A stretch of 64,000 nt of DNA, from IMG/VR virus record IMGVR_UViG_3300025141_010453, positions 1 to 64,000 of that record; one strand, written 5' to 3'. The position numbers and the translations under genes are program-made. Numbering within the stretch: position 1 is the first letter of the stretch; every line of letters starts with the position of its first letter. The notes below the pieces were generated by a model. It did not search any database. It saw nothing but the letters and a program-made list of their open reading frames with translations, and was not told where the DNA came from. Source of the DNA: a virus. Positions 3,715-25,697 of this stretch are shown here, piece by piece.

Positions 3715-4578
3715 TTAATTCATCTGTTTTAATACTATTTTATTCATGCCGCCTTCGGAAGTATCATAAACAACAAACTTAACTTCAGGAAATTCTACCT
3801 GTAATACTTCTTTTATAAATGGAATTATAACATTTATATTACCTAAATCGTCATCACTAAACCCTACAGATAATTTATTATACTGAGTATTTACCATTTC
3901 TGATGTTTTTGCAACTATTTTACTTACATAATCTCTTAGAGCTATTTTCTTACTCTCTTCAGGGTCTAGAGGAGAACCGCTTTCTAAATCAAATTTTTTT
4001 GTGAAAATTTCTGAAGTTATTGGGTGGTAATCCTGAGAATCCAAATAAGTTTTCAATATTATCTCTGGCTCCTTACCCTCTAATTCTGTAAATATTTGTT
4101 GTATATTATCTATCATCTTACTTAATTCCTCTTCATTAAATGTATTAGAAATAATTAACTCTACTCCTTTTTTTAATGTCTCAGGGGTATGTCCTCTTGC
4201 TGTAATAATAGAAATTGGACTTGCGTAAATTAATGCCTCCTTAAATTTTTCGAATGAGGGGGCAAAAGAATTATTACTCAATGCTTGTTGTAAATCAGTC
4301 AAAAAAGATTCTTCATTTATAAAATTATCAAATGCACCATCATCTAATTTATAATTCTCCTCATCCCTAAATATTGAAAATTCAGATGTACTAACGTTAA
4401 TTTTTTCCCACCCAACATCTGTTTTTTTTAACATTTTAATAGTTGTTGGCATAGTAATAATATTATCATCCCAATCAAAAGAATACGCTCTTAGATTAAC
4501 TGGTGTACTATCTTCCTCTTTTAACAAACCACTTATAATATTGAGTTGTTTTTGTGTTATAATAATTTGCTGTAACAT
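3715..4578 (-). CDS. HAD-superfamily phosphatase with N-terminal leader helix
   Basis: Start chosen at the ATG at 4578, giving 287 residues. A longer TTG start would run through the late promoter motif. HAD motifs are complete: motif I FDWDDN (Asp35, Asp37), motif II in SIITARGHT (Thr126) and motif IV GFSDDDLGN (about 239-247). It is therefore a probable Mg-dependent phosphohydrolase; the substrate is unknown. The first 22 residues (QQIIITQKQLNIISGLLKEE) are a separate amphipathic leader of the type seen on other proteins in this window and end in LKE, a possible gp21 cleavage motif. It might be packaged in the virion. It is divergent from the lipoprotein gene. Confidence 0.7.
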   Translation of the reverse strand: MLQQIIITQKQLNIISGLLKEEDSTPVNLRAYSFDWDDNIITMPTTIKMLKKTDVGWEKINVSTSEFSIFRDEENYKLDDGAFDNFINEESFLTDLQQALSNNSFAPSFEKFKEALIYASPISIITARGHTPETLKKGVELIISNTFNEEELSKMIDNIQQIFTELEGKEPEIILKTYLDSQDYHPITSEIFTKKFDLESGSPLDPEESKKIALRDYVSKIVAKTSEMVNTQYNKLSVGFSDDDLGNINVIIPFIKEVLQVEFPEVKFVVYDTSEGGMNKIVLKQMN

Positions 4579-4582
4579 ATAA

Positions 4583-4590
4583 TATAAATA
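4583..4590 (-). promoter_or_regulatory. Late promoter motif TATTTATA for HAD gene
   Basis: Perfect octamer only 4 nt before the ATG at 4578, so any transcript from it would be leaderless or nearly so. Confidence 0.5.
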
Positions 4591-4598
4591 CAAATTAG

Positions 4599-4630
4599 TT
4601 TGGTTAATTCGATTTTATTACTTATCTTTG
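4599..4630 (+). promoter_or_regulatory. Bacteroidota-type promoter TTTG-N20-TATCTTTG
   Basis: TTTG at 4599-4602 and TATCTTTG at 4623-4630 match the -33 TTTG / -7 TAnnTTTG consensus of Bacteroidota. Read as sigma70 it is TTGGTT-N17-TATCTT. The ATG of the lipoprotein gene follows after 4 nt, so the predicted start site falls on or next to the start codon. Confidence 0.65.
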
Positions 4631-4634
4631 TAGT

Positions 4635-5213
4635 ATGAAAAATTTAACAAAAATATTACTTCTAATATTAGTTCTGGTTTCTTGTACAAAAGAACCAATG
4701 TATATACCTTGTACTACCACTTACCCAACTACCCAAAATAATGGTGAGTATGTACATACTGATTTTTTAGAAGGCTGTTGGAAATTAATTGGCGGGACAA
4801 TGTATATAGAAAATTTAGATACCGAAGAAACTAGTGAGCAATTTTTATTTGATAGTGGTGTCCAAAGTAGTTTAAGGTATGACGGTATTTCGTTATACTC
4901 TATTGAGACATTGGTTAGGTATGAGACCGTGTGGTGTTTTGATTTTCCTAAAGACGTTCCAGGTGCTGGAACATTCACTCTGAATAGTGATTCTATCTAC
5001 CCATATGGTTTATATGTTACCAATAATAACATTACTATAACTGAAGATGTGTCAGGTACCTACTCACTTCTAGGTGGTTCATCAAGACCAATACAGTATG
5101 AAATAGTAAATAAACAAAATAAAATTATTAATATCTATGTCCAAGAAACCTATGAAAATATTTATGGATATAACTATTATTATTTTTCCAAACTTAGATT
5201 TAAAAAATTGTAA
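4635..5213 (+). CDS. Phage-encoded lipoprotein, lipocalin-like
   Basis: Protein of 192 residues with a type II signal peptide: basic start (MKNLTK), a hydrophobic Leu/Ile/Val core and lipobox LVSC with Cys17. The Cys-Thr-Lys-Glu junction is common in Bacteroidota lipoproteins. After it comes a beta-rich domain beginning GCWKLIGG, resembling small bacterial lipocalin-like folds. It is one of few plus-strand genes in a minus-strand structural region and has a host-type promoter, so it is probably expressed early, independently of the late programme. A role in superinfection exclusion or envelope remodelling is plausible by position and type but unproven. No close family is recognised. Confidence 0.7.
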   Translation: MKNLTKILLLILVLVSCTKEPMYIPCTTTYPTTQNNGEYVHTDFLEGCWKLIGGTMYIENLDTEETSEQFLFDSGVQSSLRYDGISLYSIETLVRYETVWCFDFPKDVPGAGTFTLNSDSIYPYGLYVTNNNITITEDVSGTYSLLGGSSRPIQYEIVNKQNKIINIYVQETYENIYGYNYYYFSKLRFKKL

Positions 5214-5223
5214 CCTATCTTCA

Positions 5224-5237
5224 ATATACTCGTATAT
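5224..5237. promoter_or_regulatory. Short palindrome ATATACTCGTATAT
   Basis: Inverted repeat of two 6-bp arms with a 2-bp centre in the 63-nt gap between lipoprotein and membrane-protein genes. It could be an operator; nothing identifies a binder. Confidence 0.25.
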
Positions 5238-5276
5238 ATTAATATAGAAGTTTAATCCTTAAAAAAAAATAAAATT

Positions 5277-5513
5277 ATGACCCAAATACTATTAACTTAT
5301 CTTATTATCTCACAAATACTAATGTTTGCTTTTTTACTTATTAATGAAAAAGATATTCGTGAAGGTTATATATCTTTCGAATCAAAACGTGGAGACAACC
5401 CTACAAGTAAGTGGTATGGATTTTATATCTTTACACATGTTCTTAAAGCTCCTTTGTTAGCTCCAATGATTCTTATCTTACTACTTTTAAATTTTGGTAA
5501 GTTGGTAGAATAA
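5277..5513 (+). CDS. Small membrane protein, two transmembrane segments
   Basis: Protein of 78 residues. Residues 4-22 (LLTYLIISQILMFAFLLI) and about 54-72 (LKAPLLAPMILILLLLNF) are hydrophobic enough to span the membrane, with a charged 30-residue loop between them. It follows the lipoprotein gene in the same direction with a 63-nt gap and an A-rich leader (no Shine-Dalgarno). The pair may work together at the envelope. A holin role cannot be excluded, but a better holin-like candidate lies near 59.4 kb. Confidence 0.6.
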   Translation: MTQILLTYLIISQILMFAFLLINEKDIREGYISFESKRGDNPTSKWYGFYIFTHVLKAPLLAPMILILLLLNFGKLVE

Positions 5514-5529
5514 AAAAGGCCCGAATTAT

Positions 5530-5624
5530 TTATTGAGATTGAATCTCATCCGGATTATTATACCCCATATCTGCCCTTGCTTGCTTTGTGATTTCGACAT
5601 ATGCGTCTATAGTTTCGTTGGCTC
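5530..5624 (-). pseudogene. Frame-shifted C-terminal tail of the 5607-5798 gene
   Basis: Downstream of the stop of the neighbouring small gene, another frame reads on for about 30 codons with normal composition (ANETIDAYVEITKQ, then ARADMGYNNPDEIQSQ and TAA at 5530-5532). This frame is closed by stops just upstream of the A6 run (5625-5630), so it can only be reached by a -1 shift there. One extra A would make a single 88-89-residue protein. The cause may be a homopolymer indel, a sequencing error or programmed slippage. Confidence 0.55.
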
Positions 5625-5798
5625 TTTTTTATCACCATCCTTATCAAGGTCTAAGAAATCTGGTTTTGGTCCTTCTACTACTTCATCCTGAACCTCATCT
5701 AACTTTATTTCAGTCCATTGTTCTTTAATAATCCCTATTCCGTGTAAATCTCTAATTCGAGTTTTCTCAGATTCGTTAAGTTTAAATCTATTTCTCAT
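5607..5798 (-). CDS. Small protein of unknown function, probably frame-interrupted
   Basis: Frame of 63 codons. The N-terminus (MRNRFKLNESEKTRIRDLHG) is a basic leader helix containing LNE, like the leaders of neighbouring proteins. The C-terminal part is acidic (PDFLDLDKDGDKK). The stop at 5607 follows an A6 run, beyond which sensible coding continues in the -1 frame to 5530. It is the last gene of the unit that begins after the sheath gene. No function is recognised. Confidence 0.55.
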   Translation of the reverse strand: MRNRFKLNESEKTRIRDLHGIGIIKEQWTEIKLDEVQDEVVEGPKPDFLDLDKDGDKKEPTKL

Positions 5799-5804
5799 AA
5801 TTTT

Positions 5805-6320
5805 TTATTTTTTTAATGAACGTCTTCTTTTTCTAGACTCATTTCTTTGTTTCTTAATATTAGAATAAACGCCTACCACTTTTCCTGGTTTTCCGTCGTA
5901 AACATCTCTTTTTTCTACTTTACTAGGTGCTCCCTTGTATGTTCCTTTTTCATCTCTACCTTCACTGAATTCAGTTCCTTCTTCATCACGGTCTTCACGG
6001 TCTTCATCATAACCCATATCTTTTTTAAGTGCATCTAAGTGTTTTTCTATTTCACGAATTCTATCATGAGGTGCCATATCTTCTTCATGTTCTAACCCTT
6101 CTTCTTCTTTTCGGTCTTCCCCCTCATCTTCACCATAGTTATAGGTTTCTTCACCTTCACTATCTTCTTCTATGTCTTCCGCTTCAAACATTTCTTTATA
6201 CTTCGCGGTTGGTGTTCCCATTATTCCAAAATTTTGTCCGTTTCCATCACCGAGATTTTCTTTAACTAATTTTTGAATTAGATTAACTAATTCCTCTTCT
6301 TTTAATTTAATCTTTTTCAT
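5805..6320 (-). CDS. Acidic virion-associated protein with leader motif (paralogue of 58709-59218)
   Basis: Protein of 171 residues. Its first 45 residues (MKKIKLKEEELVNLIQKLV, KEN, then FGIMGTPTAKYKEM) are closely matched by the N-terminus of the gene at 58709, but the remaining parts differ: here a Glu/Asp-rich middle and a basic Arg/Lys tail ending RKRRRSLKK. That layout recalls T4 internal head proteins, which have a targeting peptide plus a highly charged body. The gene is spaced 3 nt from its upstream neighbour and 6 nt from the downstream one, so they are probably cotranscribed. The function is inferred only. Confidence 0.5.
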   Translation of the reverse strand: MKKIKLKEEELVNLIQKLVKENLGDGNGQNFGIMGTPTAKYKEMFEAEDIEEDSEGEETYNYGEDEGEDRKEEEGLEHEEDMAPHDRIREIEKHLDALKKDMGYDEDREDRDEEGTEFSEGRDEKGTYKGAPSKVEKRDVYDGKPGKVVGVYSNIKKQRNESRKRRRSLKK

Positions 6321-6323
6321 TTT

Positions 6324-7193
6324 TTAAATTTTTGTTATTGGTTTTATTATTTGTTTCATATTTTTAATATCCTCTTGTATGAGTTTTTCTTTATCTTCAC
6401 TTACAAATCCTTTATTTACTACATCTTCTATTTCAGGAGCTGATTCAATACCTACTTTCAAGTCATTCTTTTCATCATCAGATGTTGTATCCCAAGCCGC
6501 ACACTTACCTACAGTACAATATTTCCATTTTTTGTCTCCCTTTTTTTTCCACCTCTTTATAAATAAGTTTCTAATCCATTGTGGTAATTTAGGCCATTTT
6601 ACCTCCCATTTTATACTTTTAAACTTTAGTTTTTCCGGGTGGACTTGTTCTTCCATTTCTTCTTCATCAGGTACTTCGATAACTTCTTCTTCTTCAAATT
6701 CAGGATGTGGTAATGGTTTGGATACTTGGTCGTAACTCCTTGGAGCTCTTTGTGATGAACCAGAGCCTACCAATTCTGCAGTATAGGTCATAAAATTACC
6801 TAATTTAGTGATAGAGTTAGCTAATTTCTTTCTAGTGTCACTATCTCTAATCATCTCATAGGCTTTCTTTATACCATTAAGTATATTTTCTAAACCTTCT
6901 CTCGCAGCAATTCCTGGATTTCTATCGTACATTCCTTGTTCCATTATAGTTCCCGAATAATCCCCGACACTTAAATCTAAGTTTTCACTCTTGATGGCCT
7001 CTCTAATTAATTGATGGGCATCTTTTATTATACTAGTTATAGATTTTTCTCTCGATTCGTTCAATTGTGATAGTAATCGGTCCAATTGTTCTTCACTAAT
7101 AATAACATTTTGTTTTTTACCTTCCGTAAATACTTTTTTACCGGATTTAGGATGATTTAAACTTTCTCTTAGAGTTTGTATACTAAATTTCAT
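6324..7193 (-). CDS. Unknown protein with leader-type N-terminus
   Basis: Protein of 289 residues, not recognised. The N-terminus holds two (L/I)xE-type leader elements, SIQTLRESLNHP and NVIISEEQLDRLLSQLNES. A helical middle follows (about 50-140), then an acidic hinge (VIEVPDEEEMEE) and a basic Trp/Lys-rich segment (KWEVKWPKLPQWIRNLFIKR). The Cys pair in YCTVGKCAAW is 5 residues apart and alone does not define a metal site. It follows the sheath gene directly, with its own late motif, and leads a three-gene unit of leader-bearing small proteins. A virion-internal protein is the most likely class. Confidence 0.45.
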   Translation of the reverse strand: MKFSIQTLRESLNHPKSGKKVFTEGKKQNVIISEEQLDRLLSQLNESREKSITSIIKDAHQLIREAIKSENLDLSVGDYSGTIMEQGMYDRNPGIAAREGLENILNGIKKAYEMIRDSDTRKKLANSITKLGNFMTYTAELVGSGSSQRAPRSYDQVSKPLPHPEFEEEEVIEVPDEEEMEEQVHPEKLKFKSIKWEVKWPKLPQWIRNLFIKRWKKKGDKKWKYCTVGKCAAWDTTSDDEKNDLKVGIESAPEIEDVVNKGFVSEDKEKLIQEDIKNMKQIIKPITKI

Positions 7194-7206
7194 ATCTTTA
7201 TTTTAT

Positions 7207-7214
7207 TATAAATA
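7207..7214 (-). promoter_or_regulatory. Late promoter motif TATTTATA
   Basis: Perfect octamer squeezed between the sheath stop codon and the next ATG (13 nt away). Confidence 0.55.
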
Positions 7215-10200
7215 CTATATATCTTCAAAAGAAGCTCCTGTCGGTGTTATCAAGAATTCAACAAATATATATTCTAACGCTCTTGTAGGTTTAATATATA
7301 TTTTACCATTCATTTCATTTCTATCTATTTCTTCAGGGTCATTAGAAAGTACCACTCTAAAGTCCGTTAAACCTCTATCTCTTCTAATAGAATCTAATAT
7401 TGGATTTACTAGGTCTAAGAATTGTTGTCTTACTATATCATCATTTTGTTCAAATATTAATCTAACTGCTACTGCTGAAATTAATTTTCTAGTTTGTAAC
7501 AATAATCTTCTAACATTTATTCTATCTAATGCGGATTCTTTAATCTGTAATGTTTTATTACCCCAAATAATTGGGCCTACATCACTAAACGTTGCAATAG
7601 GATTAAGTCTACCAACATATAATGTATCTCTTTCGTCAAGAGTAAGTTTCTTTCTAGCTTTTACAGCATTTACAATACCTCTAGTATAACCCGCTGATGC
7701 AAACCATGGGAATGCAATATTATCTGTTAAGGCAATATTTCTCATTACCTCAGAAGTTGGTGGTATATAAATTTGTTTATTATTAGCCGTATCTCTTACC
7801 TGTATCCAAGGATAATAAGTAGCTGTATAATTAGAATCTATAAGAGAATCTTCTACATTATCTACAGCTTCCTCTGGTGTAATTTGATTAGTAATGTCTG
7901 TGGTGTTTGGTACAAACATATTATAATCTGGTGTGGTAACCACATATAAAGAATCTGCTCTATCAGTTTCTACCATATCTATAGCTTCATTAACCAAACC
8001 TAAATTATCTACATAATCAAGACCTGGAGTTGCAAATACATTAATATTTACAGATTCTGGATTACTGAATGTCTCAATAGCTCTTAGGTAAGCAAAATAA
8101 TCTGTGTTTGCTTCTGATGAACTTAATTTCTTAAATGTACCTGCTCCAGTTGCTGTATTGAACTCTGCCGTATTACATGCTCCCGCTAAGAATCCGGATA
8201 ATCCCATTCTATAATCGTCTGTATTGGACCTAGTTTTTCTATATATATCCCATCCGTCAAATCCACCATGTGGTGCAATCGTAAATTTACGACTTCTAAG
8301 TTTTTTATATGGTTCAGTAGTTAGGGTTGGTTCATGATTAAATTGTCCTGCTCCACAATCAAATACTGATTTACCATTTAATGTAGTTCCTGACCACTCT
8401 AAGTAAGTTCCAACACCACCACTTATAACAGTTGCTCCTGAATCCATATGGAATCCTTTTGTTATTACTTGCCATTCTCCTCCATCTACTGCTGTACATA
8501 AAGTAGACGGTATTTGTTTTCCTTTATAAGCGAAGAAATCTGAATCATAAGCTGCTCCCGTACTATTAGAAACACCGAGATATACTTTACTAACTTTATC
8601 TCCACCACTTATAGTTTGGTTATTTACAGTACCACTACCAAATGGTGGGTCGTAAATTACTTCACCAGCATTATAGTATTTTGTTTTATATACAATTGTT
8701 GGGTTAATTGGGCAATTACCATAACCTCTAAATCGATAACCTTCAAAACCACATGGTAATGAATTTGTAAATGTGCCATCTAAAAGTCCTTCACCTAAAT
8801 ACAACATTGTATATTTAGATTTTAATTCAAATTCACCTGTAGATGTACCAATTTTTCTACCAATAAAAGATACTTTAGTTGGGTCTAAACTACATCTAGT
8901 ATATTTTTCTAAGACATTTGGATTTGCGTCTGTGTCGTAGAAGTCTCTCACCACAATATCAAATTCTCCTCTTTCAAAAGATAGATTAATTAAAGAAATT
9001 TTAATTTCTTTATTTGCTGCTGTACCATCAGATATAGAAATAAATTTAAATAACCTAAACACATCCGTACCTTGTAATTCTGAAACAATCCATGGTGTCT
9101 CAGGTGTTGTCCACTGATTCATATACCAAGCTATAGTGTTTGTAGGTGTGGCATTTCTTGCTGATGGTAAATATTTTAAACAACATTGTAACCCTCTAAC
9201 TTTTCCTTTTTTCCAAGCGTCAGTTAATAATGCTGGATAAGCTTCTTCTACAAATAATGGAACTTCTTCTTTTACTTTATCAAATGGGCTTCTACCAAAT
9301 ACTCTAGAGACATACTCTTGTGATGTATTACTCATAGAAGTTTTAAATGTATAATTATTACCATTTACTGTTCCCGCACTTATACCAAATGACGCAAATG
9401 GATTTTCTAATACTTTATAATAATCACCAGTACAATCAAAACTAACAGTATCTGCACTTATACTATAAATTGGTCCACCAGAAGCCTTAGTACTAAGTCC
9501 TCTAGACCTTAAAGTTAATACTACCATACCATCATACTCTTCTTGTACATTAACATCTGTGTAAGTTATATATTCTATAACCACATTACCTGAATATACG
9601 GGAACTGCTCCCCATGTACCTGCACTAGTAGTTCCTGTTGCTTCTATATATGTTTGTGATTGTCCCACAGAATCACCAGATATATACATTTGGTAGGATA
9701 CTCCACTATATGTTCCTCCTGAACAACATGAACTATTCACATAATCAAATAATCCATAATACCAAGAATCATTTTCATATGAATTATAATCTGTACAATT
9801 GGTTGATAATATATTACTTACTGTTACACATGAAGTAGATGAAGATAATGTTTGTTGAGTTGTTGCAGTTGCTGTATTTGTCATAGCGGATGGTATACAT
9901 CCGTATTGATACACAATTGGTATTGGCCAAGCAGTAATACCTGAAAGAGCACCAGGTGCGTCTGTACCACCGGTAAAGCAAGACATTCCGTCCGAGTTAA
10001 GTACATCTAAACTACTAGAAAAGAAATTCATGAACGAATCTCTTAACGTTGGTAGTGTGGTTCCATTAGTTAAAGTTACGATTTCTCCATAACTAGTATC
10101 TGTACTACTTGTTTGCCAATGATTTAATATTGCTGCTGGTAGTGTAGTAAAGAAATCTGTAGTTCCTATTTCACTGACCCATGCATCTGTTCCTACAGTA

Positions 10201-10649: not shown

Positions 10650-10684
10650 GTTTTATAATTTTAAAATGTTTTATTTTCTTTAAT

Positions 10685-10692
10685 AATAAATA
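10685..10692 (-). promoter_or_regulatory. Late promoter-like motif TATTTATT for gp18
   Basis: One mismatch from the octamer, 35 nt before the sheath ATG on the coding strand. Confidence 0.45.
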
Positions 10693-10751
10693 CAAGTGGT
10701 ATAGACAAAAGTTACGTAGTAAATACTTATATTTTAGAGATAGTAAGTAAA

Positions 10752-10772
10752 TTTTCATACTTTTTTCATACT
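10752..10772 (+). repeat. Tandem repeat TTTTCATACT x2, possible operator
   Basis: Two identical 10-bp units at 10752-10761 and 10763-10772, offset by 11 bp (one helical turn), upstream of a small ribbon-helix-helix gene. Such spacing suits cooperative binding of Arc/CopG-type dimers. This is a regulatory inference only. Confidence 0.4.
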
Positions 10773-10804
10773 ATATCGTAGTTATATTAAAAATACACCC
10801 TACA

Positions 10805-10972
10805 ATGGTAACTAAAGACAAAAAATCAAAAATAAAAAATTTAAAAATAAGTGTAGAATCTCATACACTTCTTAAAATTTATTGTACTAAAAAAGGATTA
10901 AAAATGTTTGCTTTTATAGAGCGTTTAATAAAAGAAAATTGTAAGTCCATAAAAGATATTTATGGTGAGTAA
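10805..10972 (+). CDS. Small ribbon-helix-helix (Arc/CopG-like) DNA-binding protein
   Basis: A complete 55-residue reading frame, ATG at 10805 and TAA at 10970-10972. After a basic arm (MVTKDKKSKIKN), residues LKISVESHTLLKIYCTKKG form the strand plus first helix typical of ribbon-helix-helix repressors, and MFAFIERLIKENCK is the second helix. It is the only plus-strand gene between sheath and neck genes and ends exactly where the opposing gene ends. A pair of direct repeats lies 33-53 nt upstream and may be its own operator. It may repress its own and nearby promoters. The fold is judged by pattern. Confidence 0.6.
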   Translation: MVTKDKKSKIKNLKISVESHTLLKIYCTKKGLKMFAFIERLIKENCKSIKDIYGE

Positions 10973-12558: not shown

Positions 12559-12575
12559 ATGAGTTTCCCTTTTAT

Positions 12576-12583
12576 TATAAATA
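12576..12583 (-). promoter_or_regulatory. Late promoter motif TATTTATA for neck unit
   Basis: Perfect octamer 17 nt before the ATG at 12558, only 3 bp from the divergent helicase promoter. Confidence 0.55.
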
Positions 12584-12586
12584 CAA

Positions 12587-12616
12587 TTTGTCTTTCTTTT
12601 CTCTTTTTATTATATT
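12587..12616 (+). promoter_or_regulatory. Host-type promoter for helicase, TTTG-N20-TATATT
   Basis: TTTG at 12587-12590 and TATATT at 12611-12616 (TTGTCT-N17-TATATT as sigma70). The ATG at 12622 is 5 nt beyond the -10 element, predicting a leaderless or nearly leaderless mRNA. Confidence 0.5.
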
Positions 12617-12621
12617 GCCGT

Positions 12622-14395: not shown

Positions 14396-14989
14396 ATGGC
14401 TAAAAAAGAATTTACAAAAAAACAACTTAAAGAACAGTTAACTCTATTAACTGAAGGAGGTGCAGCTAATAAAAAGAATTTATCCAAAGCTTATCACGCA
14501 CTACAGAAATTAAAAGCTATGAAAGGGTCCAAAATAGGAGACAAAATTATAGATAGTGCAGCTCTTAATAAAATTAAAGCTGCATGGCGTCTTATTGAAG
14601 ATTTATTTGATAAAACAACAGATGAGGATATTACCAAGCAAGAAGATGAAAAAGAAAAAGAGGAGTCAAAAAAAGTTACAGAGAAAAATGAACAGTCTGA
14701 AGGTCATGGAAAAATGTATAACGCATTACAAGGTGTAAGAGAAGGTAAGGTTGTTAAGGTTAATGAAGGTACTTTAAAAAGAATTGTAGAACGAGTTATT
14801 AAAGAACAAAAAAATGTTAGTTTTGATGATATGCTTAGTAACCTTTCGACAGCTGTTACCAGAATTAAAAAGGTTTCTACCACTGCGTGGAAAAAGTCCG
14901 AACCTGCACTTACCGATAAAGAACTTGCAGACGGTAAAAAGAAAGCCGTTACAGAATTAAAGTCAATACTTGATTCATATACTAAATAA
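14396..14989 (+). CDS. Leader-bearing charged protein, probably virion-associated
   Basis: Start chosen at 14396 because the late motif sits at 14373-14380, inside any longer frame. The product has 197 residues, is Lys/Glu-rich and mostly helical. The N-terminus (EFTKKQLKEQLTLLTEGG) carries a leader helix ending LTE-Gly, a good gp21-type site. A second copy of the same style occurs internally (VKVNEGTLKRIVERVIKEQ). Neither an enzymatic motif nor a known family is recognised. A terminator follows, so it is a monocistronic late gene. I suspect an internal head protein. Confidence 0.5.
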   Translation: MAKKEFTKKQLKEQLTLLTEGGAANKKNLSKAYHALQKLKAMKGSKIGDKIIDSAALNKIKAAWRLIEDLFDKTTDEDITKQEDEKEKEESKKVTEKNEQSEGHGKMYNALQGVREGKVVKVNEGTLKRIVERVIKEQKNVSFDDMLSNLSTAVTRIKKVSTTAWKKSEPALTDKELADGKKKAVTELKSILDSYTK

Positions 14990-15054: not shown

Positions 15055-15062
15055 TATTTATA
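15055..15062 (+). promoter_or_regulatory. Late promoter motif TATTTATA for gp13-like gene
   Basis: Perfect octamer 15 nt before the ATG at 15078. The leader GAAAGGATATATT contains AAAGG, one of the few Shine-Dalgarno-like sites in the window. Confidence 0.55.
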
Positions 15063-15077
15063 TAGAAAGGATATATT

Positions 15078-16214: not shown

Positions 16215-16215
16215 A

Positions 16216-17286: not shown

Positions 17287-19983
17287 TTCTTTTATAAAAT
17301 AGTCTTCACTTAAATTCACACTCTTCCAATATTCTGTTTCTTCTGGTGATAGTGTAAGTATTTCTTCTAAAGAATCCTGGTCTCCTTCTTTTCTTGATAG
17401 CCCATTTATTAATTTACATTGTGTTTTTGTATAATATTCTCTATCTTCTGGTTTTTTCTGTAGTAGGCTGTCTCTAACCTCTGGTTTAAAACAAACTAAT
17501 AATGGTTCTATTCTTTTATTAAATGTAGAAATATACCTAGGAACATTATATTCTCCTTTCATTCCATTTTCTAAATCATTTTCTTCTATTAAATAAGAAT
17601 TTAAAACCACTTCTTCTGTTCCATCTTTTTTCTTTTTTCTTTGTACATCTCCATGTGACATTGCTGTACCATTGTTAACATAATAAATTGTGTCCCCTAG
17701 AGAAACTGGGATATTATTTTTAATAACAAGTTCCATATGTGCTTGTCTTGCCATCAAATTACCAGCTTTTGTACGTTGTCCACATCTTTTTTTATAAGAT
17801 TCAATAGTTTGTTTTATCCTTGCTTTATTAGCGATATTAGCTAATAAAATATCTCTATTATAAATTCTAGTTAAATACTCATAATAATATTCTATAAACT
17901 CGTCACCTTTTCCTTCTAAAAGCAACCTTAAACCCTTATCTATAAATTCTTCTAGGTAACCCTGAATCTTCTTAGATTTAATTGAGTTCCCCGTTAACTT
18001 AACTGACCCATTAGGTAATAAGAGAGCGTAATTTTTTCTTGCTATATTAATACACGCTGGCCATTGCCCATCACTATCTAACCCCATTTCATCTCTCATA
18101 AATAAATCATTATACTCTGCAACATCCGCTTCAGTACCTATATATAATTTATGTTTTTCTACTAACTCATTATTACCAATACCAATATACTCTCTTTCTT
18201 CTACATCTTGTGGGCAAGAAAAATTTACCCCATCTGTATCCATCACTAATGGGTCATATCCTTTTTCCCTAAAAAACTTAACCATTTGACGTAAATATTG
18301 TCTTGCGGTACATGTAACTTTTTCTCCCATATTCATATCCCCCCATGGAAAAACTTGTGGTGCTGAAAGTGAGCCAAACATTGAATTTATGAAAATCTTA
18401 ATCGGTAGTTGTTTTCTTCCAAAATCCTCTGATTTCTTTTTATCTTTATCAAAATATTGTGAAGCTAAATTTTTATATTTAATTCTGGTATCTCTAAAAT
18501 ATTTTAACATTCCTTTCATAGCTTCAGTAATGTCACAGTCTGGAAAAACATTATGAACTAACTGAATGGATGGGTATAGAGAACTAAAATCTAATTTTAA
18601 AACGTTAGTAGAATAGCCTATTTTAACTAGTCTAGATAGTCCCCCAACAAAAGGTCTTTTATGGTCTTTTTCTGGAATAGCTAAACCTTTGTGATAAGAC
18701 CAAGCTAACATTAACATTTTCCATAATGTAGCTGTACCCATTGTAGAAACTCTTTCATAAGATGTAGGTACCATACTTGCAAGTAAAAACGAAGCTTGAT
18801 TAAATTGGCCGTCTACTTCCATGGTCTCCCATAAATCATCCATCAAATATAGTTCTACAATTTCTGCTCCCCCTACTTTTTTATATACTTTAGGGAATCT
18901 TTTATCAAGATTATATAATCCGTCGGAACCCACTAATTTATATTTGCCATTTTCAACATTTAAATAGAATTCCTTATTTTCTTTATAGGTGGAAGAAATC
19001 TTATCCCCATCTACATATACTCGATTTGGTTTGTGTGATTTAGAGAATTGTGTTATATATTTTAATCCCCAACTTTTTATTTCAGAATTAATAGTTTGTG
19101 CACGCCTTACAGCGTGAGCTATGTCTAAAGAATTATATCCCCATATCTTTATTTGTTTATATTTTTCAATTTCAGCTCCTAATTTTAATACCCCCTCATT
19201 AATTTTATAACCTTCATTAGGGTTAAGTGTTTTAAACTGGGTGGTGTCCATCTGTAAAATATCAGCTCTTTTAAATAACCAGTTCCAGTCAAAGTTTGAT
19301 GAATTGTACCCACCTATAAGTGTTGGCTTTAAATTATTTATTATTTCAAAAAATTCATATATAGCTTCCGACTCTTCTAAATCATTATCATCAATTTCTA
19401 TAACTTTCTCAAACCCTCTATTATCTTTCATACCAATCATAAAGATTCTTCCATCTTCTGGATTTAAAGCAGTAGTCTCTAAATCAAAAACAAATCTATG
19501 TATATCATTATATTCTTTAAATCCTTTAAATAATCTTTTTTCTTTTTGTACTAGATATTGTTCTATAGGTGGTAAAATCATAATAACATCTCTATTTTCA
19601 CTATCCCATGGATTTAATCCTCCTTGTCTAAAAAATGCTACTAAATCTCTATATGTTTTTGTTGTTTTTATTAAATAAGTTAAACCATTATTTAATCTTT
19701 TATCATCTCCAGTATATAATTTTTCTATTAATATACCATGCTTAGATATAGCTTCTTTCTGAGCCTCTTTATTGCCACTATAAAAGTTTTTCTTACTTAA
19801 ATCACCCACCCAACAAAATGGAATAAATGTGTCAGATTCAATAATTTTACCCTTTTCTGGGTCTTCTTTTATTTTATAAATTTTACTAGTTCGCCATCCA
19901 TATTCTAATGCTACAATATATTTTTCAGGGTCATTACCATGTAAAAAAATTTGTATTTCTTCTGTTGTAGCTTTTTCTATCAT
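17272..19983 (-). CDS. 43: DNA polymerase gp43 (family B)
   Basis: Product of 903 residues (T4 gp43 has 898), the replicative polymerase with 3'-5' exonuclease. Exo I is FDLET (Asp167, Glu169) and Exo II is GGYNSSNFDWNWL (about 224-236). Polymerase motif A is DFSSLYPS (465-472), motif B is the segment from Lys529 through NSMFGS, and motif C is DTDG (582-585). All catalytic acids are present. A host-type promoter lies 33-63 nt upstream, fitting early expression. It stands alone between late virion genes, and its 3' end overlaps the opposing fiber gene with no terminator seen. Confidence 0.96.
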   Translation of the reverse strand: MIEKATTEEIQIFLHGNDPEKYIVALEYGWRTSKIYKIKEDPEKGKIIESDTFIPFCWVGDLSKKNFYSGNKEAQKEAISKHGILIEKLYTGDDKRLNNGLTYLIKTTKTYRDLVAFFRQGGLNPWDSENRDVIMILPPIEQYLVQKEKRLFKGFKEYNDIHRFVFDLETTALNPEDGRIFMIGMKDNRGFEKVIEIDDNDLEESEAIYEFFEIINNLKPTLIGGYNSSNFDWNWLFKRADILQMDTTQFKTLNPNEGYKINEGVLKLGAEIEKYKQIKIWGYNSLDIAHAVRRAQTINSEIKSWGLKYITQFSKSHKPNRVYVDGDKISSTYKENKEFYLNVENGKYKLVGSDGLYNLDKRFPKVYKKVGGAEIVELYLMDDLWETMEVDGQFNQASFLLASMVPTSYERVSTMGTATLWKMLMLAWSYHKGLAIPEKDHKRPFVGGLSRLVKIGYSTNVLKLDFSSLYPSIQLVHNVFPDCDITEAMKGMLKYFRDTRIKYKNLASQYFDKDKKKSEDFGRKQLPIKIFINSMFGSLSAPQVFPWGDMNMGEKVTCTARQYLRQMVKFFREKGYDPLVMDTDGVNFSCPQDVEEREYIGIGNNELVEKHKLYIGTEADVAEYNDLFMRDEMGLDSDGQWPACINIARKNYALLLPNGSVKLTGNSIKSKKIQGYLEEFIDKGLRLLLEGKGDEFIEYYYEYLTRIYNRDILLANIANKARIKQTIESYKKRCGQRTKAGNLMARQAHMELVIKNNIPVSLGDTIYYVNNGTAMSHGDVQRKKKKDGTEEVVLNSYLIEENDLENGMKGEYNVPRYISTFNKRIEPLLVCFKPEVRDSLLQKKPEDREYYTKTQCKLINGLSRKEGDQDSLEEILTLSPEETEYWKSVNLSEDYFIKELTLL

Positions 19984-20015
19984 ATTCTCTGCATTTAATT
20001 TTTCGTGATTACCTA

Positions 20016-20046
20016 CAAAGATAAGTAAAGAATTTTAAGTAATCAA
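20016..20046 (-). promoter_or_regulatory. Bacteroidota-type promoter TTG-N20-TATCTTTG for gp43
   Basis: On the minus strand TTG (20044-20046) and TATCTTTG (20016-20023) are exactly 20 nt apart. The -7 box and flanks (ACTTATCTTTGTAG) are identical to the lipoprotein promoter at 4621-4633. The predicted leader is about 27 nt, A-rich, with no Shine-Dalgarno. Confidence 0.7.
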
Positions 20047-20050
20047 TAAA

Positions 20051-20446
20051 TTAACAAGGTTGGATACAGGGTTGCCCTATAAAAGATTCGGATATATTAA
20101 TAAATAAATCTTCTCGGATTGGGACTATCAATTCTGAGCAATTCTGTTCATGAAAATATACAACAAATTGCCCTTCAAATCTACCTGATTTATTAACATC
20201 TCTAGATTTCCATTTATAATATATATAATATTCTACTGGTGAATTTACCGAAGTGGGTGTTTTAGCGACTATATAAGCACGGGCATTTAATATTTTAGGA
20301 ATCCCAGTTTCCACGTCTTTCATTGCGAAGTATATACTTGAATTTGCTAGTTTATCGTGAAAGTTCTGAAAATCGTTTCTTCCATCCTGAACTAATTGCA
20401 TCTTAAGTATTGGTTCTACTGAGTTTTTCCTAATAAAAAATTCCAT
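20051..20446 (-). CDS. Small beta-sandwich virion protein (BppU-like N-domain style)
   Basis: Protein of 131 residues. The layout SIYFAMKDVETGIPKILNARAY, followed by YYIYYKWKSRDVNKSGRFEG and a terminal LIVPIREDLFINI, resembles the immunoglobulin-like N-terminal domains of phage receptor-binding baseplate proteins (BppU type), where a modifiable polynomial-like strand order is typical. It is the second gene after the large adhesin-like gene but has its own late motif. It probably connects or decorates a fiber. This is a family guess by pattern. Confidence 0.4.
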   Translation of the reverse strand: MEFFIRKNSVEPILKMQLVQDGRNDFQNFHDKLANSSIYFAMKDVETGIPKILNARAYIVAKTPTSVNSPVEYYIYYKWKSRDVNKSGRFEGQFVVYFHEQNCSELIVPIREDLFINISESFIGQPCIQPC

Positions 20447-20461
20447 ATATTATCTTTTATT

Positions 20462-20469
20462 TATAAATA
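20462..20469 (-). promoter_or_regulatory. Late promoter motif TATTTATA
   Basis: Perfect octamer 15 nt before the ATG at 20446. The sequence TATTTATAAATA here also contains the T4-type TATAAATA in the same direction. Confidence 0.55.
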
Positions 20470-20478
20470 TCATTCCTA

Positions 20479-22968
20479 CTAGTTATGACTACATCCTGTA
20501 CAACAGTCATCACAATTATTTGCTCCACCAGCAAATACGGTTAAATTATTAACACCTCCGGTAGCACCAAAAAACGGTACGTATGAACTTGGTGCGAGTG
20601 TCTGCACCCCAACATATTCATAACATGAATATAAAACTGACCCATTATTTTGCGTTACAGCTCTTTGAACTACTGTTCCTATAGGTGGTGAACCTATAAG
20701 TTGGTAGTAATCTGCTGATGCTGCCTCAGTACTGGGAAAACTATCACTTAGTATAGTAACTGGGTACCCAGCAAGTATATATCCTGGTACAGGGTTGGGG
20801 CCTTGACAGGCTTTATAGACATGTATGGTAACTGAATTGGTAACAACTGGTTCACTTGAACCGTTATAGCCACAATCAGTACAACCTTTATTACAATTTT
20901 TACATTCTTCACAATCAATTAAGCTATATCTGTCTTTATTGATTAAGAAATTATGATAAATTTCATCTGGGGTTAATGGTTTTATATAATACATCATTTG
21001 TGAAATACCTCCAACAAACGTACCAGCAAAAAATTGATTTAACATCATTTGGTCGGGCGGTAAATTCTTATGGGTCATCGTACCTCCACTACAATCTGGC
21101 ATTAAATTTTCTCTAAGTCCGAATGTTCCTCCACCCCAAGACATATTATATGCAACACCAACTTGTGTTTGTTTATTGGTATTTAATTGTCTAGGTATTA
21201 TTTCTTCATAGTTTTCTACTTTATGAACTCTTCTTCCATTAACATAAAAACTTAAAGTACCTAGTCTATATTCTTTTTCTTCAAACCAACTTTGTATTTG
21301 TGCTCCATGACAGTTAAAATCAAAATAAGCGTCTTCTATAAATCTTGGGTATTCATCTTTACATGGTTTAGTTTCTGGTGTTGGGTTAACTGGGTCACAC
21401 CCAAATGGCCCGGCAGTACTCGCTGCATGGCTACCATATCTTTCAAACTTATCAGTTCTAATTTTAACTAAATCATTAACACCACCATTATTATATATTT
21501 CACAATCTTCCAAATAAAGATTTCTATCAAATACAATATCTATCTGAACCCATATTTCCTTACAATTTCCGCTTTGTGTTATAAATTTACAAATAGGTTC
21601 AGAATAACTTTCTTCAATTACATAATCACAATTAAATGTTTTACCTGTATTACAAGTTTCACCAGTGGTCACACACTCTCCGGTATATCTAATCGTTCTA
21701 TACCCTATTCTCATATCATCAGTAAGTCTAACACCTAAAGCGTTACTATAGACATCATATCTACAATCAGGAGATTTATTTTGTTGTGCTAGGGGAACTG
21801 CTTTTTCTTCTGTATTACAACATCCTGTAATTCCAGTTAGTGTAGTGCACCCGGACCCTGTTAAATCCAACACTAGGCCAGACCAAAAACTAGAAGCACT
21901 ATAGAGTGAACTAGCAAAATATTTATCCTCTGCCCTTACACCTTTATAAAAGAAAAATCCTGAGGTACTTGAAGTAATGGGATAATCCATACCAGTTCCA
22001 TTATACGAACTATAATTTAATGTGTGTATTGGTTGGTCATTCATTGCAGAACCTAAAGGGCTACAGAAAGTGGTAGCACTTCCGAAATTTATAGAACTTG
22101 CAGTAGTGGCACTATATATTCTATTCCATCCACTAGCATTATAACAACTCCCATAATAACCACAAATTACACTATTATCTCCAACTGCTGTACAACACTT
22201 ATCCTCTACTTTACATATACTATCACTTATTGTAGTTAGTTTTAAATAAGTTTCAAAACTCCATCCTTTATTTGGTCGTGTAGGTAATACTTCATATGGG
22301 TAACCATATAATTTATAAAATCCTTGGTAAAATCCACCTTTTAGTTCTTGGTAATACCCTGATGCGTCAGATGCATTAAGAATACTGGTATCCGTATACC
22401 ATTCGTTGATGGCTCCCGTAGTAGGGAATCCAAATGCTTTTACTTGGTGCATTTTAAACCTTTTATCATAAGATGATTTATCAAACTGATTCCAGTAAGG
22501 TGAGTCAGTAGGTATGTCACACCATAACTCTATGCACGCACCAGAGGCAACATCTTGTTCAGTAAATAAACCATTATCGGTTGCTGTCCATGCAGCGTCA
22601 CAAACCTCATAATACCCAGGAGAAACATCATAAGGACAATCACAACAAGACTTTGCTTTAGACCAACTATTCTTACTTAAAACCATAAATGATGTATACC
22701 CCGTATTAGAGTTATAATCTGAGGTATTTCCTGTTGGGTACTGAAATGCACATGTTGTGGTAGGTTGTGTAGAACAGTCTGTATCAGCAAGGTCAATCCA
22801 TACTGGAAGTATGTCACCATTATTATAAGCAGTAATACCAGTCGACCAAACTACATCCGTATTAAAGTCTTTTTCGTCAGACGCTAAAAATAAATCATAA
22901 TATTCACTATAATTAATTTTACTATCTAATCTATTGAAATAAAAATTATTTAAATTTTGTGTTCCCAT
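20479..22968 (-). CDS. Large cysteine-rich virion adhesin/fiber, lectin-like
   Basis: Protein of 829 residues, aromatic-, Ser/Thr- and Cys-rich with no signal peptide. Segments GWSFETYLKL and GTLSFYVNGRRVHKVENYEE look like concanavalin/laminin-G type carbohydrate-binding sandwiches. The middle carries many CC and CxxC pairs. Near the C-terminus a dense cluster (DCEECKNCNKGCTDCGYNG, about residues 693-711) and the end CDDCCTGCSHN could bind metal. A host-recognition or virion-surface role is likely; the exact position is unknown. It is a late gene, with the motif 5 nt from the ATG. Confidence 0.55.
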   Translation of the reverse strand: MGTQNLNNFYFNRLDSKINYSEYYDLFLASDEKDFNTDVVWSTGITAYNNGDILPVWIDLADTDCSTQPTTTCAFQYPTGNTSDYNSNTGYTSFMVLSKNSWSKAKSCCDCPYDVSPGYYEVCDAAWTATDNGLFTEQDVASGACIELWCDIPTDSPYWNQFDKSSYDKRFKMHQVKAFGFPTTGAINEWYTDTSILNASDASGYYQELKGGFYQGFYKLYGYPYEVLPTRPNKGWSFETYLKLTTISDSICKVEDKCCTAVGDNSVICGYYGSCYNASGWNRIYSATTASSINFGSATTFCSPLGSAMNDQPIHTLNYSSYNGTGMDYPITSSTSGFFFYKGVRAEDKYFASSLYSASSFWSGLVLDLTGSGCTTLTGITGCCNTEEKAVPLAQQNKSPDCRYDVYSNALGVRLTDDMRIGYRTIRYTGECVTTGETCNTGKTFNCDYVIEESYSEPICKFITQSGNCKEIWVQIDIVFDRNLYLEDCEIYNNGGVNDLVKIRTDKFERYGSHAASTAGPFGCDPVNPTPETKPCKDEYPRFIEDAYFDFNCHGAQIQSWFEEKEYRLGTLSFYVNGRRVHKVENYEEIIPRQLNTNKQTQVGVAYNMSWGGGTFGLRENLMPDCSGGTMTHKNLPPDQMMLNQFFAGTFVGGISQMMYYIKPLTPDEIYHNFLINKDRYSLIDCEECKNCNKGCTDCGYNGSSEPVVTNSVTIHVYKACQGPNPVPGYILAGYPVTILSDSFPSTEAASADYYQLIGSPPIGTVVQRAVTQNNGSVLYSCYEYVGVQTLAPSSYVPFFGATGGVNNLTVFAGGANNCDDCCTGCSHN

Positions 22969-22973
22969 GTATT

Positions 22974-22981
22974 AATAAATA
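22974..22981 (-). promoter_or_regulatory. Late promoter-like motif TATTTATT
   Basis: One mismatch, 5 nt before the ATG at 22968. It forms a divergent pair with the motif at 23000. Confidence 0.42.
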
Positions 22982-22999
22982 CTATTTGATTGGTTTAGA

Positions 23000-23007
23000 T
23001 ATTTATA
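23000..23007 (+). promoter_or_regulatory. Late promoter motif TATTTATA
   Basis: Perfect octamer 12 nt before the ATG at 23020, heading the five-gene unit to 25697. Confidence 0.55.
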
Positions 23008-23019
23008 TATAAAAGGAAA

Positions 23020-23862
23020 ATGAAAAGAACTGAAGCAATTACGTATGTTATTAACAAACTTAAAGTATTAAAAGAGGAACTAGGCGGTGGAAAAAGTATT
23101 TCACCTTTAAACTTTCTTACTTTATCTGAAATTTTTAAATTTCAAATAGAACCTAAATCACATCGATTTACCGCATTATGTCTAGACGAAGCTGCAAAAA
23201 TTAATAATGATGAAAAGCATTTAGAAATGATAAATAGTATATTGCAGGATGAGTTGGAGGGGGATGAAGATGATGGAGATGAAGATGCAGAAGAAGTTAA
23301 TGAATTATTAGATTTTGATGGTTCTATTCAAAGCAGTAAAATACCACCTGGTTCTGAAACTAATAAAACATTAAGTTCTAAAAAAACAACTGATGATGTT
23401 GTAAAAGCTACTAGTCAAGCTGGGACTTGGACTGGGGGTGGCCATTATTTTAAAAGATATTATGGGGAATCAGTAGAAGAACTTGGTGAACATGATATGA
23501 GTGAAGTTCTGGGGTTTGAGGATACTGAATTTAAAAATGCTGAAGATACTATAGAGTACTTTGAAAAAGAGCATGATATGGATGAAACAGAAGCTGCGGA
23601 AAGAGCGGAATCTATGGGTAAAACAAAAAATTTAGATGAACTGGGGCAACAAAGATTAACTGAAAAAGAAAGATTAAAAAAAATATCAGAAGATAGAGCC
23701 CGAAAGATGATTGAGGTCATATTGTCCAAAAAAGATGATGGGCATGAAATTTCTGATGGCAAAAATTCTTTATTAGACATTAAAATAAAACAACTATTAA
23801 AACTTGCTTCTGCGGACGAGATGTCGACTGAGGAATTAATTGATAAGATAAAATCATATTAA
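23020..23862 (+). CDS. Acidic helical protein of unknown function
   Basis: Protein of 280 residues. It starts with a leader-like helix (RTEAITYVINKLKVLKEELGG) followed by Gly-Gly, has an acidic run in the middle (DELEGDEDDGDEDAEEVNEL) and charged helices to the end (ARKMIEVILSKKDDGH). No catalytic motif is seen. It is the first gene of a late unit of small proteins and overlaps the next start by 1 nt (TAATG). Scaffold- or head-associated function is possible from composition and company only. Confidence 0.5.
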   Translation: MKRTEAITYVINKLKVLKEELGGGKSISPLNFLTLSEIFKFQIEPKSHRFTALCLDEAAKINNDEKHLEMINSILQDELEGDEDDGDEDAEEVNELLDFDGSIQSSKIPPGSETNKTLSSKKTTDDVVKATSQAGTWTGGGHYFKRYYGESVEELGEHDMSEVLGFEDTEFKNAEDTIEYFEKEHDMDETEAAERAESMGKTKNLDELGQQRLTEKERLKKISEDRARKMIEVILSKKDDGHEISDGKNSLLDIKIKQLLKLASADEMSTEELIDKIKSY

Positions 23863-24317
23863 TGAATAGTGATTTAAAAAATGATACTTACGTCTTACCC
23901 GACTCTATCTTAGATACCTTAATAACTAATTTAAAGTCTTTAAGTGTGGGGGATAAAGGATATGACAGATGTAAAAATATGGTTAGTGATGGTAGTTTAA
24001 CCTATCCTCAAGCAAAAAAGTTTAAACATGAATTAGAAAATGAACTAGAAGATGAAGATTATAATGTGGTTGGTGGGGATGATATATTAGATTTCATAAA
24101 TGATTCTTTAACTCATAGACGGGATGGTGTTCATCGTTCTAAAAAGATTAGACAAAATTCGGGTGAAGAAAATGTTTTTAAAAAACCCCATACTAAAGAT
24201 AAATCTAAAAACCCAACCAAGGTAAGAAAAATTAAAGTACAAAAAAATAGTGACGAGATACTTAATAATAGAGCTGTTTATGAAGAAATAGACAGAATAA
24301 AACAACTTATAAAATAA
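23862..24317 (+). CDS. Basic/charged protein of unknown function
   Basis: Protein of 151 residues, translationally coupled to the preceding gene by a 1-nt stop/start overlap. Helical N-terminus (DSILDTLITNLKSL), then a Lys/Arg-rich middle (KVRKIKVQKN). It ends with the short helix YEEIDRIKQLIK, a terminal motif similar in style to the leader helices elsewhere in this phage. Not recognised. Confidence 0.5.
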   Translation: MNSDLKNDTYVLPDSILDTLITNLKSLSVGDKGYDRCKNMVSDGSLTYPQAKKFKHELENELEDEDYNVVGGDDILDFINDSLTHRRDGVHRSKKIRQNSGEENVFKKPHTKDKSKNPTKVRKIKVQKNSDEILNNRAVYEEIDRIKQLIK

Positions 24318-24323
24318 ATAATT

Positions 24324-24665
24324 ATGGCAGATTTTAATCAAAAACAACCAGGTGAAAAATTAACCGAAGAATCAAAAAAATTACGAGAACAAATGTTAGT
24401 AAAAAATATTTATCCCGTAAGTGATAGTGAAGGATATAGTCCTAACCACCCTAATGCATTATCTGATGGTGATGATAAAGGTAAAGGTAATTCTATATAC
24501 TTAGGTGTTTATGGTGATGACATTGGTACTCGTACTGATATCATGGGTAATGGCGAATCTAATACGGGTAGGATTAATAATTTAAAAACCAACCTATATG
24601 ATAGAGATAATGAATATAGTGCAGGGAATATTGATTCTGGTGAAGGTTATAAACCACAACAATAG
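24324..24665 (+). CDS. Small hydrophilic protein of unknown function
   Basis: Protein of 113 residues, very hydrophilic, rich in Asp, Asn and Gly (DSEGYSPNHPNALSDGDDKG) and probably little structured. It lies 6 nt after its neighbour and 6 nt before the next gene in a late unit, so it is likely a minor virion or assembly protein. No family is recognised. Confidence 0.5.
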   Translation: MADFNQKQPGEKLTEESKKLREQMLVKNIYPVSDSEGYSPNHPNALSDGDDKGKGNSIYLGVYGDDIGTRTDIMGNGESNTGRINNLKTNLYDRDNEYSAGNIDSGEGYKPQQ

Positions 24666-24671
24666 TTAAAA

Positions 24672-25073
24672 ATGAAATTATTAGACTCATTAATAGAATT
24701 ATTAACCGAGAATGTTTCTAATGAAGTAATTAAAGACGCGATTACTAATAAACAGACTTGTGAGTTAAAGTATCTTGACGATGAAAAACTTCCTGAGGGA
24801 GCGCAAGCTAGAACTATTCAACCAGTAGCGTACGGTTATTCTCTAAAAGGTAACCCAGTAATCAGAGCATATCAAACTTCTGGCCCATCTTTAAAGGTAA
24901 ACAAAAAAGGTATCCCGTTACCAGATTGGAGATTATTTAGGGTAGATAAGGTTAAAAGTATGATACCTATGAAAGGTGATGATAGTTTATTCTTGACTTT
25001 TGCTGAGCCTCCCTTATATAACCCTGTAGGGGACAATTCTATGAATAGAATGATGTATAACTCAAAATTTTAA
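24672..25073 (+). CDS. WYL-like domain protein with leader helix
   Basis: Protein of 133 residues. The N-terminal helix (MKLLDSLIELLTEN) ends LTE, like the leader motif on other proteins here. The rest follows the WYL pattern: an initial helix (VIKDAITNKQTCELKYLDDE), a central R-x-I-Q-P strand (ARTIQPVAYGYS), then GNPVIRAYQTSGPS and WRLFRVDKVKSM. WYL domains usually bind nucleotides or nucleic acid in bacterial regulators. A free-standing one inside a late virion unit is unusual. There is no helix-turn-helix. The fold call is by pattern only. Confidence 0.55.
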   Translation: MKLLDSLIELLTENVSNEVIKDAITNKQTCELKYLDDEKLPEGAQARTIQPVAYGYSLKGNPVIRAYQTSGPSLKVNKKGIPLPDWRLFRVDKVKSMIPMKGDDSLFLTFAEPPLYNPVGDNSMNRMMYNSKF

Positions 25074-25076
25074 AAA

Positions 25077-25697
25077 ATGGCAGATATTTCAACATTACAA
25101 CAATCATTAATAAACGCTAAAAAAGTGATGGCTAAAGTAAATGATGGGGACTTCACTAAAAGTGGAATCTCATTACCAACTTCTACTTCTACGCCAAATA
25201 TTAATATGGATAGTGTACAACAACACTTACCTACGCAACCTAATATTCAAGAATCTTTATCATCTAGACCAACCAATCTTAGTCCTAAAGCTAATATGAA
25301 TGAAGAAAAGATTAAAAATTCAAATTTACCTGAAGCTGTTAAAAAAGCTATGATAAATAATCCAATACCAGACATACCTTTTAATGGTGGTGGAGCTGGT
25401 TTAAGTGAAGAATTTTTAAGTGGTGTAAAAACTCAAATGGATAAACAAGGTATTTCTACTTCTGTTCCTTCTACTCAACAATTAATACCTCCAACCAATA
25501 CAAAAACTAAAAAACTATCATCTAAAAATTTAAAATCTATAATCAAAGAATCTGTAAAAGAACTTCTAGAAGAAGTTGTTAACACTAAAATTAATGAAAA
25601 TATAGGTGTGAGAACAGATATGGGAGAAAATTTCCAATTTAGAGTAGGTGATAAAGTTTTTTATGGTAAAATAACTTCTAGCAAGACAATAAAATAG
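25077..25697 (+). CDS. Protein of unknown function with internal leader-like helix
   Basis: Protein of 206 residues. Much of it is Asn/Pro/Ser-rich and likely disordered (LPTSTSTPNINMDS), followed near residue 155 by the helix LKSIIKESVKELLEEVVN and a short beta C-terminus (FRVGDKVFYGKITSS). It is the last gene of the late unit. Its final five codons (encoding KTIK and the stop) lie inside the 60-bp repeat that precedes the glycan block. Confidence 0.5.
   Translation: MADISTLQQSLINAKKVMAKVNDGDFTKSGISLPTSTSTPNINMDSVQQHLPTQPNIQESLSSRPTNLSPKANMNEEKIKNSNLPEAVKKAMINNPIPDIPFNGGGAGLSEEFLSGVKTQMDKQGISTSVPSTQQLIPPTNTKTKKLSSKNLKSIIKESVKELLEEVVNTKINENIGVRTDMGENFQFRVGDKVFYGKITSSKTIK

Follow-up and report, generated by a model that had tools for sequence, protein, structure and literature searches.

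We analyzed a window of 64,000 nt, part of the 94,012-base virus record IMGVR_UViG_3300025141_010453, in which several proteins start with a short helix that ends in a glutamate. We propose that these leaders serve as capsid-targeting propeptides for a phage head of the T4 type and are new in sequence, a reading to which we give a probability of about 0.78. Most likely the leader would be a tag for loading proteins into the phage head, from which they would reach the bacterium. The T4 capsid-targeting scheme itself is known; what is new here, and strongly supported at the sequence level, is the leader sequence and a much larger set of carriers. In the proposed mechanism, the leader helix would dock a protein onto the prohead core, and the prohead protease gp21 would cut after the terminal Glu, a site of the kind that the major capsid protein gp23 has (LINE/A; here and below a slash marks the predicted cut). 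The cut would free the mature protein inside the head, and many of the freed proteins would later pass into the host along with the DNA; some carriers, such as small acidic ones, may be core proteins instead.

The evidence that carries this reading comes from the leader taken as a whole. A first profile, seeded on five leader copies from the window genome and run over the open reading frames (ORFs) of its relatives, finds 75 matches of at least 10 bits; ORFs that were reversed or shuffled give none. A cleaner profile, A4, with 23 positions that include the terminal Glu and the consensus MKKIIRLTESDLxRIVKRVIxE, finds 138 such matches in real ORFs versus none in reversed ORFs. When run on whole records, A4 has matches in 16 of 17, with 4 in the window's own genome and a maximum of 15 in a 296-kb one. 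A DNA-pattern scan of IMG/VR, where relatives of the window phage are abundant, adds at least 80 further loci, at least 77 of them with a leader ORF, and several show runs of leader genes (L383, for example, has six pattern matches in a run). These record sets are non-independent samples, as many loci were reached via gp23, via the HAD-like protein described below, or via the leader itself. Compared by BLAST over their mature parts, the 105 N-terminal carriers form 54 unrelated families, most of them seen once: the leader is swapped between unrelated proteins. Recognizable domains in the cargo are UPF0227 alpha/beta-hydrolase, PG_binding_1 and LysM. A literature search, incomplete in its coverage, returned no description of this leader. 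We do not claim phage-specific dialects of it: similarity within genomes is 0.53 versus 0.48 between them, with shuffled values of 0.476±0.024 and a shuffled maximum of 0.564.

Leaders are 13-26 residues long in the window, and 170 of 200 class A leaders measure 21-22. They form a strongly amphipathic helix (helical moment 0.67 vs. 0.32±0.02 when shuffled), and 200 of 209 distinct leaders end in [LIVM]xE. Conservation stops right after the terminal Glu: the information is 4.2 bits at that residue (P1), 1.4 at the next, 0.7 at the second, and less than 0.5 from P3' on. Can we be sure that the Glu is not a product of the search? Because the A4 profile includes it, we give a pattern-based count separately. 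As a control we took loci retrieved by a DNA pattern whose end lies six residues short of the Glu: both the Glu and the hydrophobic residue two before it are present in 73 of 88, and several of the others have a helix that is four residues longer and ends in [LI]xE. Thus the terminal Glu is not produced by the search.

As an example of how leaders and proteins are combined, the HAD-like hydrolase (DWDDN) at 3715-4578 on the minus strand starts with MLQQIIITQKQLNIISGLLKE/E (residues 1-21; 4516-4578, minus strand). Its homologues carry unrelated leaders: MSNRNLIKKILKE/V and MKKLIMTESQISTIKKYLNE/A are two examples, and uncultured megaphages have MDILRFDQFIRE/S. Yet 37 of the 40 homologues retain the P1 Glu, with L, I or V at P3; of the remaining three, two have LLE displaced by one gap and one is leaderless. 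When these leaders are grouped into 20 independent clusters, 18 have [LIV]xE at the right place versus 6.2±2.0 in shuffles, and not one of 20,000 shuffles reached 18. The bacterial homologues, from Kiritimatiellae and relatives, have only a short stretch ahead of the core and no leader helix. Among 66 cellular homologues, [LIV]xE does occur near the core in 25, nearly always as a VxE within a conserved NxxVAERD or VNESV and with no leader helix; [LI]xE occurs there in only one. Leaderless HAD-like homologues (L177-L256) are widespread in genomes of Kiritimatiellae, Verrucomicrobia and Lentisphaerae, and the two that we tested have no NCBIfam match.

The initial annotation called this protein a HAD phosphatase, and its four catalytic motifs (D35xD37, T126, K210 and D242-D244) are indeed strictly or almost strictly conserved across 36-40 sequences. 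The AlphaFold2 model (predicted template modeling score 0.75) has a predicted local distance difference test of 46-50 over residues 1-26, and the fold begins at residue 28. A fold search with that model finds no PDB match at E ≤ 0.001. The HExxH protein, described next, also has no significant PDB match in a fold search, so that both names, HAD and HExxH, rest on motifs. A PDB sequence search gave no match either.

Two more families outside the window, elsewhere in the 94-kb record, show the same exchange. The DYGD family, represented at 68587-69921, has five different leaders, ending LHE/AP, LNE/AP, LFE/AP, VRE/AP and VKE/AP, and a sixth, INE/AP, in L292. The 366-residue HExxH (HELTH) protein at 78540-79640 of the record (G000; L003:15040-16140) has the leader MKLIITKKQSKRLIKE/ALG with the site LIKE/ALG, and a 46%-identical homologue has another leader with the site RINE/AQG; its AlphaFold2 model has low confidence over residues 1-17, with most of the remainder folded. 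The HExxH gene adjoins a gene that reads as a Clp-like ATPase (76480-78519), and a DnaK-like gene, similarly named from its sequence, lies nearby (74434-76299).

The window phage is T4-like, with gp23 at 59653-61461 (minus strand; PF07068, E 2.2e-64; phrog_138), a gp21-type prohead protease of the Peptidase S77 family at 62950-63642 (minus strand; phrog_207, E 2.3e-44), and tail genes. In the protease, His88 and Ser151/152 are aligned and conserved with T4 gp21 and with the protein of Flavobacterium phage immuto. The best annotated matches of gp23 are in Microcystis phage Mel-JY01, Flavobacterium phage immuto and Rhodothermus phage RM378, all below 45% identity; 20 kb of the window, compared with known phages by megablast, gave no match. 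In the genome of immuto, which is grown in the laboratory on Flavobacterium sp. LMO8, the leaders that we read predict mature N-termini at, for instance, FIAE/ARMQ, LLLE/ESDF (on a 5'-nucleotidase), IIKE/ALDA and VSE/ANV (on gp23). The gp23 propeptide (61282-61461, minus strand) ends in LINE60/ATS, as the initial annotation had it: all 81 aligned sequences have LINE, the next residue is Ala in each of them except L026, and we infer that gp23 is processed at this site. Between the two genes, at 61488-62834 on the minus strand, is an acidic protein, from this position probably the prohead core or scaffold protein in the place of gp22. It contains three near-identical tandem repeats, ERAKYGGNKGDERKSEPDFEM.

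The leader also keeps company with this head module. In 25 long leader-bearing records, gp23 is present in 16 and an S77 protease in the same 16. The other nine also have no terminase, which is present in 13 of 13 tested gp23-bearing records, so that these nine are probably fragments without the head module. A comparison set of 19 records, picked by an arbitrary 14-mer, includes 3 that have gp23, and the leader occurs in none of the 19. We found the leader only in phages of the gp23/gp21 lineage and in fragments that lack the head module. Every prediction of capsid targeting that could be checked in sequence was borne out: the helix is amphipathic and ends in [LIV]xE, one tag sits on many unrelated proteins and on none of the cellular homologues, and gp23 and a gp21-type protease occur together with it.

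In T4, the leaders of the internal proteins (IPs) and of Alt bind the prohead core, with the early residues governing targeting, and gp21 cuts them after L/I-x-E; Alt is processed at both ends (PMC9026906). The T4 IP genes are homologous in the leader alone, by which ip genes are recognized, and their products inhibit restriction enzymes after injection (PMC12373910). The leaders that we describe are like the T4 capsid-targeting sequences of IPI, IPII, IPIII and Alt: both are short N-terminal peptides that end in [LI]xE, sit on unrelated proteins and occur in phages that have gp23 and gp21. Those of T4 read MKTYQEFIAE/A in IPIII and IPII and MELITELFDE in Alt (PMC9026906, PMC12373910); the megaphage HAD leaders (FDQFIRE/S) look like them, and so does the leader at 24672, which can be compared to that of Alt. 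On the other hand, the main leader class here is 21-22 residues long with a sequence of its own (KIIRLTESDLxRIVKRVIxE), it often has Val at P3 and Gln or Asn at P1', it also occurs C-terminally, its cargo is often acidic, and several records have far more carriers per genome. T4 gp23 and gp24 also have N-terminal [LI]xE sites (FLTE65/A and LLRE10/S in the T4 record, compared to LINE60/A in gp23 here), but they are shell proteins, whereas the leaders described here are on accessory proteins. Finally, the ejection proteins of phiKZ and SPN3US have N-terminal propeptides that are cut after xxE by a gp21-like protease, and they are ejected with the DNA (PMC7411985, PMC13282480); their propeptides are unlike ours in being long (more than 100 residues in several SPN3US proteins) and in having another motif (AxE in SPN3US).

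Several observations weigh against capsid targeting. The A4 profile has no significant match to T4 IPI, IPII, IPIII or Alt, and for that reason we do not claim homology to the T4 sequences, only a working likeness. The sites differ from that of gp23, as a quarter of the leaders (50 of 200) have Val at P3, and the usual P1' residue is Gln, Asn or Glu, compared to Ala in gp23. The L124, L133 and L134 families have a class A helix with no terminal Glu. Not all A4 matches are N-terminal: 13 are C-terminal tags and 12 are internal. T4 internal proteins are basic, but the proteins at 5607, 5805 and 58709 are by direct reading rich in Glu and Asp, as are many of the relatives' carriers.

Some of these features have aspects of their own. 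Gln is the commonest P1' residue (68 of 200 leaders), and after cleavage it would be an N-terminal Gln able to form pyroglutamate. A stretch of L133, SDGRLKKNI...EFEYK, resembles a chaperone domain by eye, with no Pfam match. The same helix is a C-terminal tag in L087, L096, L102, L108, L115, L042, L024 and others, for example KKTLKLTESQLISIIEKVVKEKNK at the very end of the protein, and some members of the 'GSY..PLQPG' family carry it at both ends. The C-terminal helix is probably an alternative tag, to be compared with the two-ended processing of T4 Alt.

The explanation that survives best besides capsid targeting is that most leader proteins are parts of the prohead core, like T4 gp67 and gp68, which would assist in building the head and then be digested or expelled, so that the leader would be a core-assembly helix and little or nothing would be injected. 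The proteins at 5607, 5805, 6324 and 58709 in the window are small and acidic, which agrees with such a role, as do the internal and C-terminal helix copies and a YMFF family that lies near gp23 in many relatives. But 54 unrelated families, most single and some in runs, look like accessory cargo, and among the cargo are domains that resemble enzymes (HAD-like, HExxH, UPF0227 alpha/beta-hydrolase) or bind the cell wall (PG_binding_1, LysM). We consider this explanation rather unlikely.

More doubtful still is that the helix targets some other phage or host structure, such as the tail, a membrane or a replication compartment, or that it dimerizes, the terminal Glu being a mere helix end. Amphipathic helices serve many uses, and the helix can be internal; yet the Glu is kept across leaders that are otherwise unlike in sequence, the site resembles that of gp23, and wherever a phage has a head module it is of the T4 type and includes gp21. 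As for chance, short LxE helices are common in AT-rich phages, whose proteins abound in L, I, K and E, and a bare [LI]xE count is only about 2 standard deviations above that of interior windows; but the 138 profile matches against none in reversed ORFs, together with the junction tests in families (the HAD leader clusters and the DYGD family), rule it out as the origin of the full leader. Equally improbable is a stretch conserved as DNA, such as a regulatory or recombination signal: leaders do have a constant position at gene starts, and their genes occur in runs, but we reject it since identity is lowest at third codon positions (0.53 vs. 0.76/0.81 at the others), Leu, Ser and Thr are each encoded by several different codons, and there are C-terminal copies, so that the constraint acts on the peptide.

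Returning to capsid targeting and to the window itself, the initial annotation had proposed it from seven proteins, named by their 5' ends (4578, 5798, 6320 and 7193 are minus-strand genes), that were said to share one leader with an N-terminal helix and [LI]xE. All seven exist and start as described, but the bare motif is near chance: it occurs within residues 8-40 in 48 of 105 genes of the genome, versus 38.5±4.5 for interior windows of the same proteins. It is thus nearly uninformative, and we set aside counting it as too weak a measure. The triplets named as the site are terminal in three proteins, at 4578 (LKE21/E), 14396 (LTE20/G) and 24672 (LTE13/N). In the other four they are the helix N-cap (LNE9 at 5798, LKE8 at 6320, ISE34 at 7193 and ITE8 at 58709), and the conserved site is at the helix end instead (IKE26/QW, VKE21/N, LNE46/S and VKE21/N, respectively). 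In place of one shared leader we find several types: KKIxLTExELxxLIxKxVKE, IIITEKQL...LxE, KEFTKKQL..LTE, the short MKLLDSLIELLTE, and FKLNESEKTRI..IIKE. The proposal of capsid targeting is supported in part, with these sites corrected and with the proviso that the small acidic proteins with leaders may belong to the prohead core and not to the injected cargo.

The small acidic protein at 5607-5798 (minus strand), in which DLDKDGDKKE reads as EF-hand-like, has the leader MRNRFKLNESEKTRIRDLHGIGIIKE/QW (5721-5798, minus strand). Its relatives have the tail QWQE..LDE...KPDF(L/I)DLD.DG in common and the leader different, and all end in IxE or VxE/QW. The acidic protein at 5805-6320 (minus strand) has the class A leader MKKIKLKEEELVNLIQKLVKE/N (6258-6320, minus strand; profile E 5.8e-9), and its first 50 residues resemble those of the protein at 58709-59218, whose class A leader is MKKIRITESELVDLIEKLVKE/N (58709-58771, plus strand; profile E 2.8e-10) and in which the profile also matches an internal class A copy, ITESQLIKRLKKRLIKE (59006-59056, plus strand). 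The 289-residue protein at 6324-7193 (minus strand) carries an N-terminal leader region (7056-7193, minus strand) with IISEEQLDRLLSQLNE/S at residues 31-46; related IISEEQLDRx leaders are found in HAD-neighbor genes of relatives. At 14396-14455 (plus strand) the leader is MAKKEFTKKQLKEQLTLLTE/GG, with MNKKEYSKKQLKKKLGMLTE/S and MGKKEFTKKQLRSRLVTLTE/A in homologues, and it is followed by an internal class A helix copy, KVVKVNEGTLKRIVERVIKEQ (14747-14809, plus strand; profile E 8.3e-4), which is C-terminal in the homologue L284. The short leader MKLLDSLIELLTE/N (24672-24710, plus strand) appears as LLTE, LVTE or LLSE (L[LV][TS]E) in 9 of 9 sequences with variable flanks; the WYL-like label given to its protein falls short, as Pfam WYL scores E 0.016 and 15.7 bits, under the cut-off of 21.8.

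The search of the remainder of the genome that had been suggested does yield further leader copies, at 68587, 78540, 86613-88700 and 89617 of the 94-kb record. At 84779-88700 (G000; L004:5779-9700), two large proteins of 601 and 695 residues have leader-like N-termini and long hydrophobic stretches, and they are candidates for large internal or membrane-acting proteins; a search for relatives of the 601-residue one (84779-86584) found none. Elsewhere in the window, 25745-52698 is a long run of genes that by eye look like glycosyltransferases and nucleotide-sugar enzymes, plus a split transketolase, a surface-sugar cluster in a phage genome.

There is perhaps an even chance that this aquatic T4-like lineage, many of whose members are jumbo phages, has a very large and fast-changing injected arsenal, of up to some 15 proteins per genome, carried by one modular helix at either terminus and made of enzymes (HAD-like, HExxH, alpha/beta-hydrolase) and cell-wall-binding proteins. 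If so, the tag alone could list injected effectors of unknown function. The cultivated relative Flavobacterium phage immuto makes the reading directly testable. The leader would then mark candidate injected proteins among the unnamed genes of T4-like and jumbo phages that are abundant in aquatic environments and mostly uncultivated.

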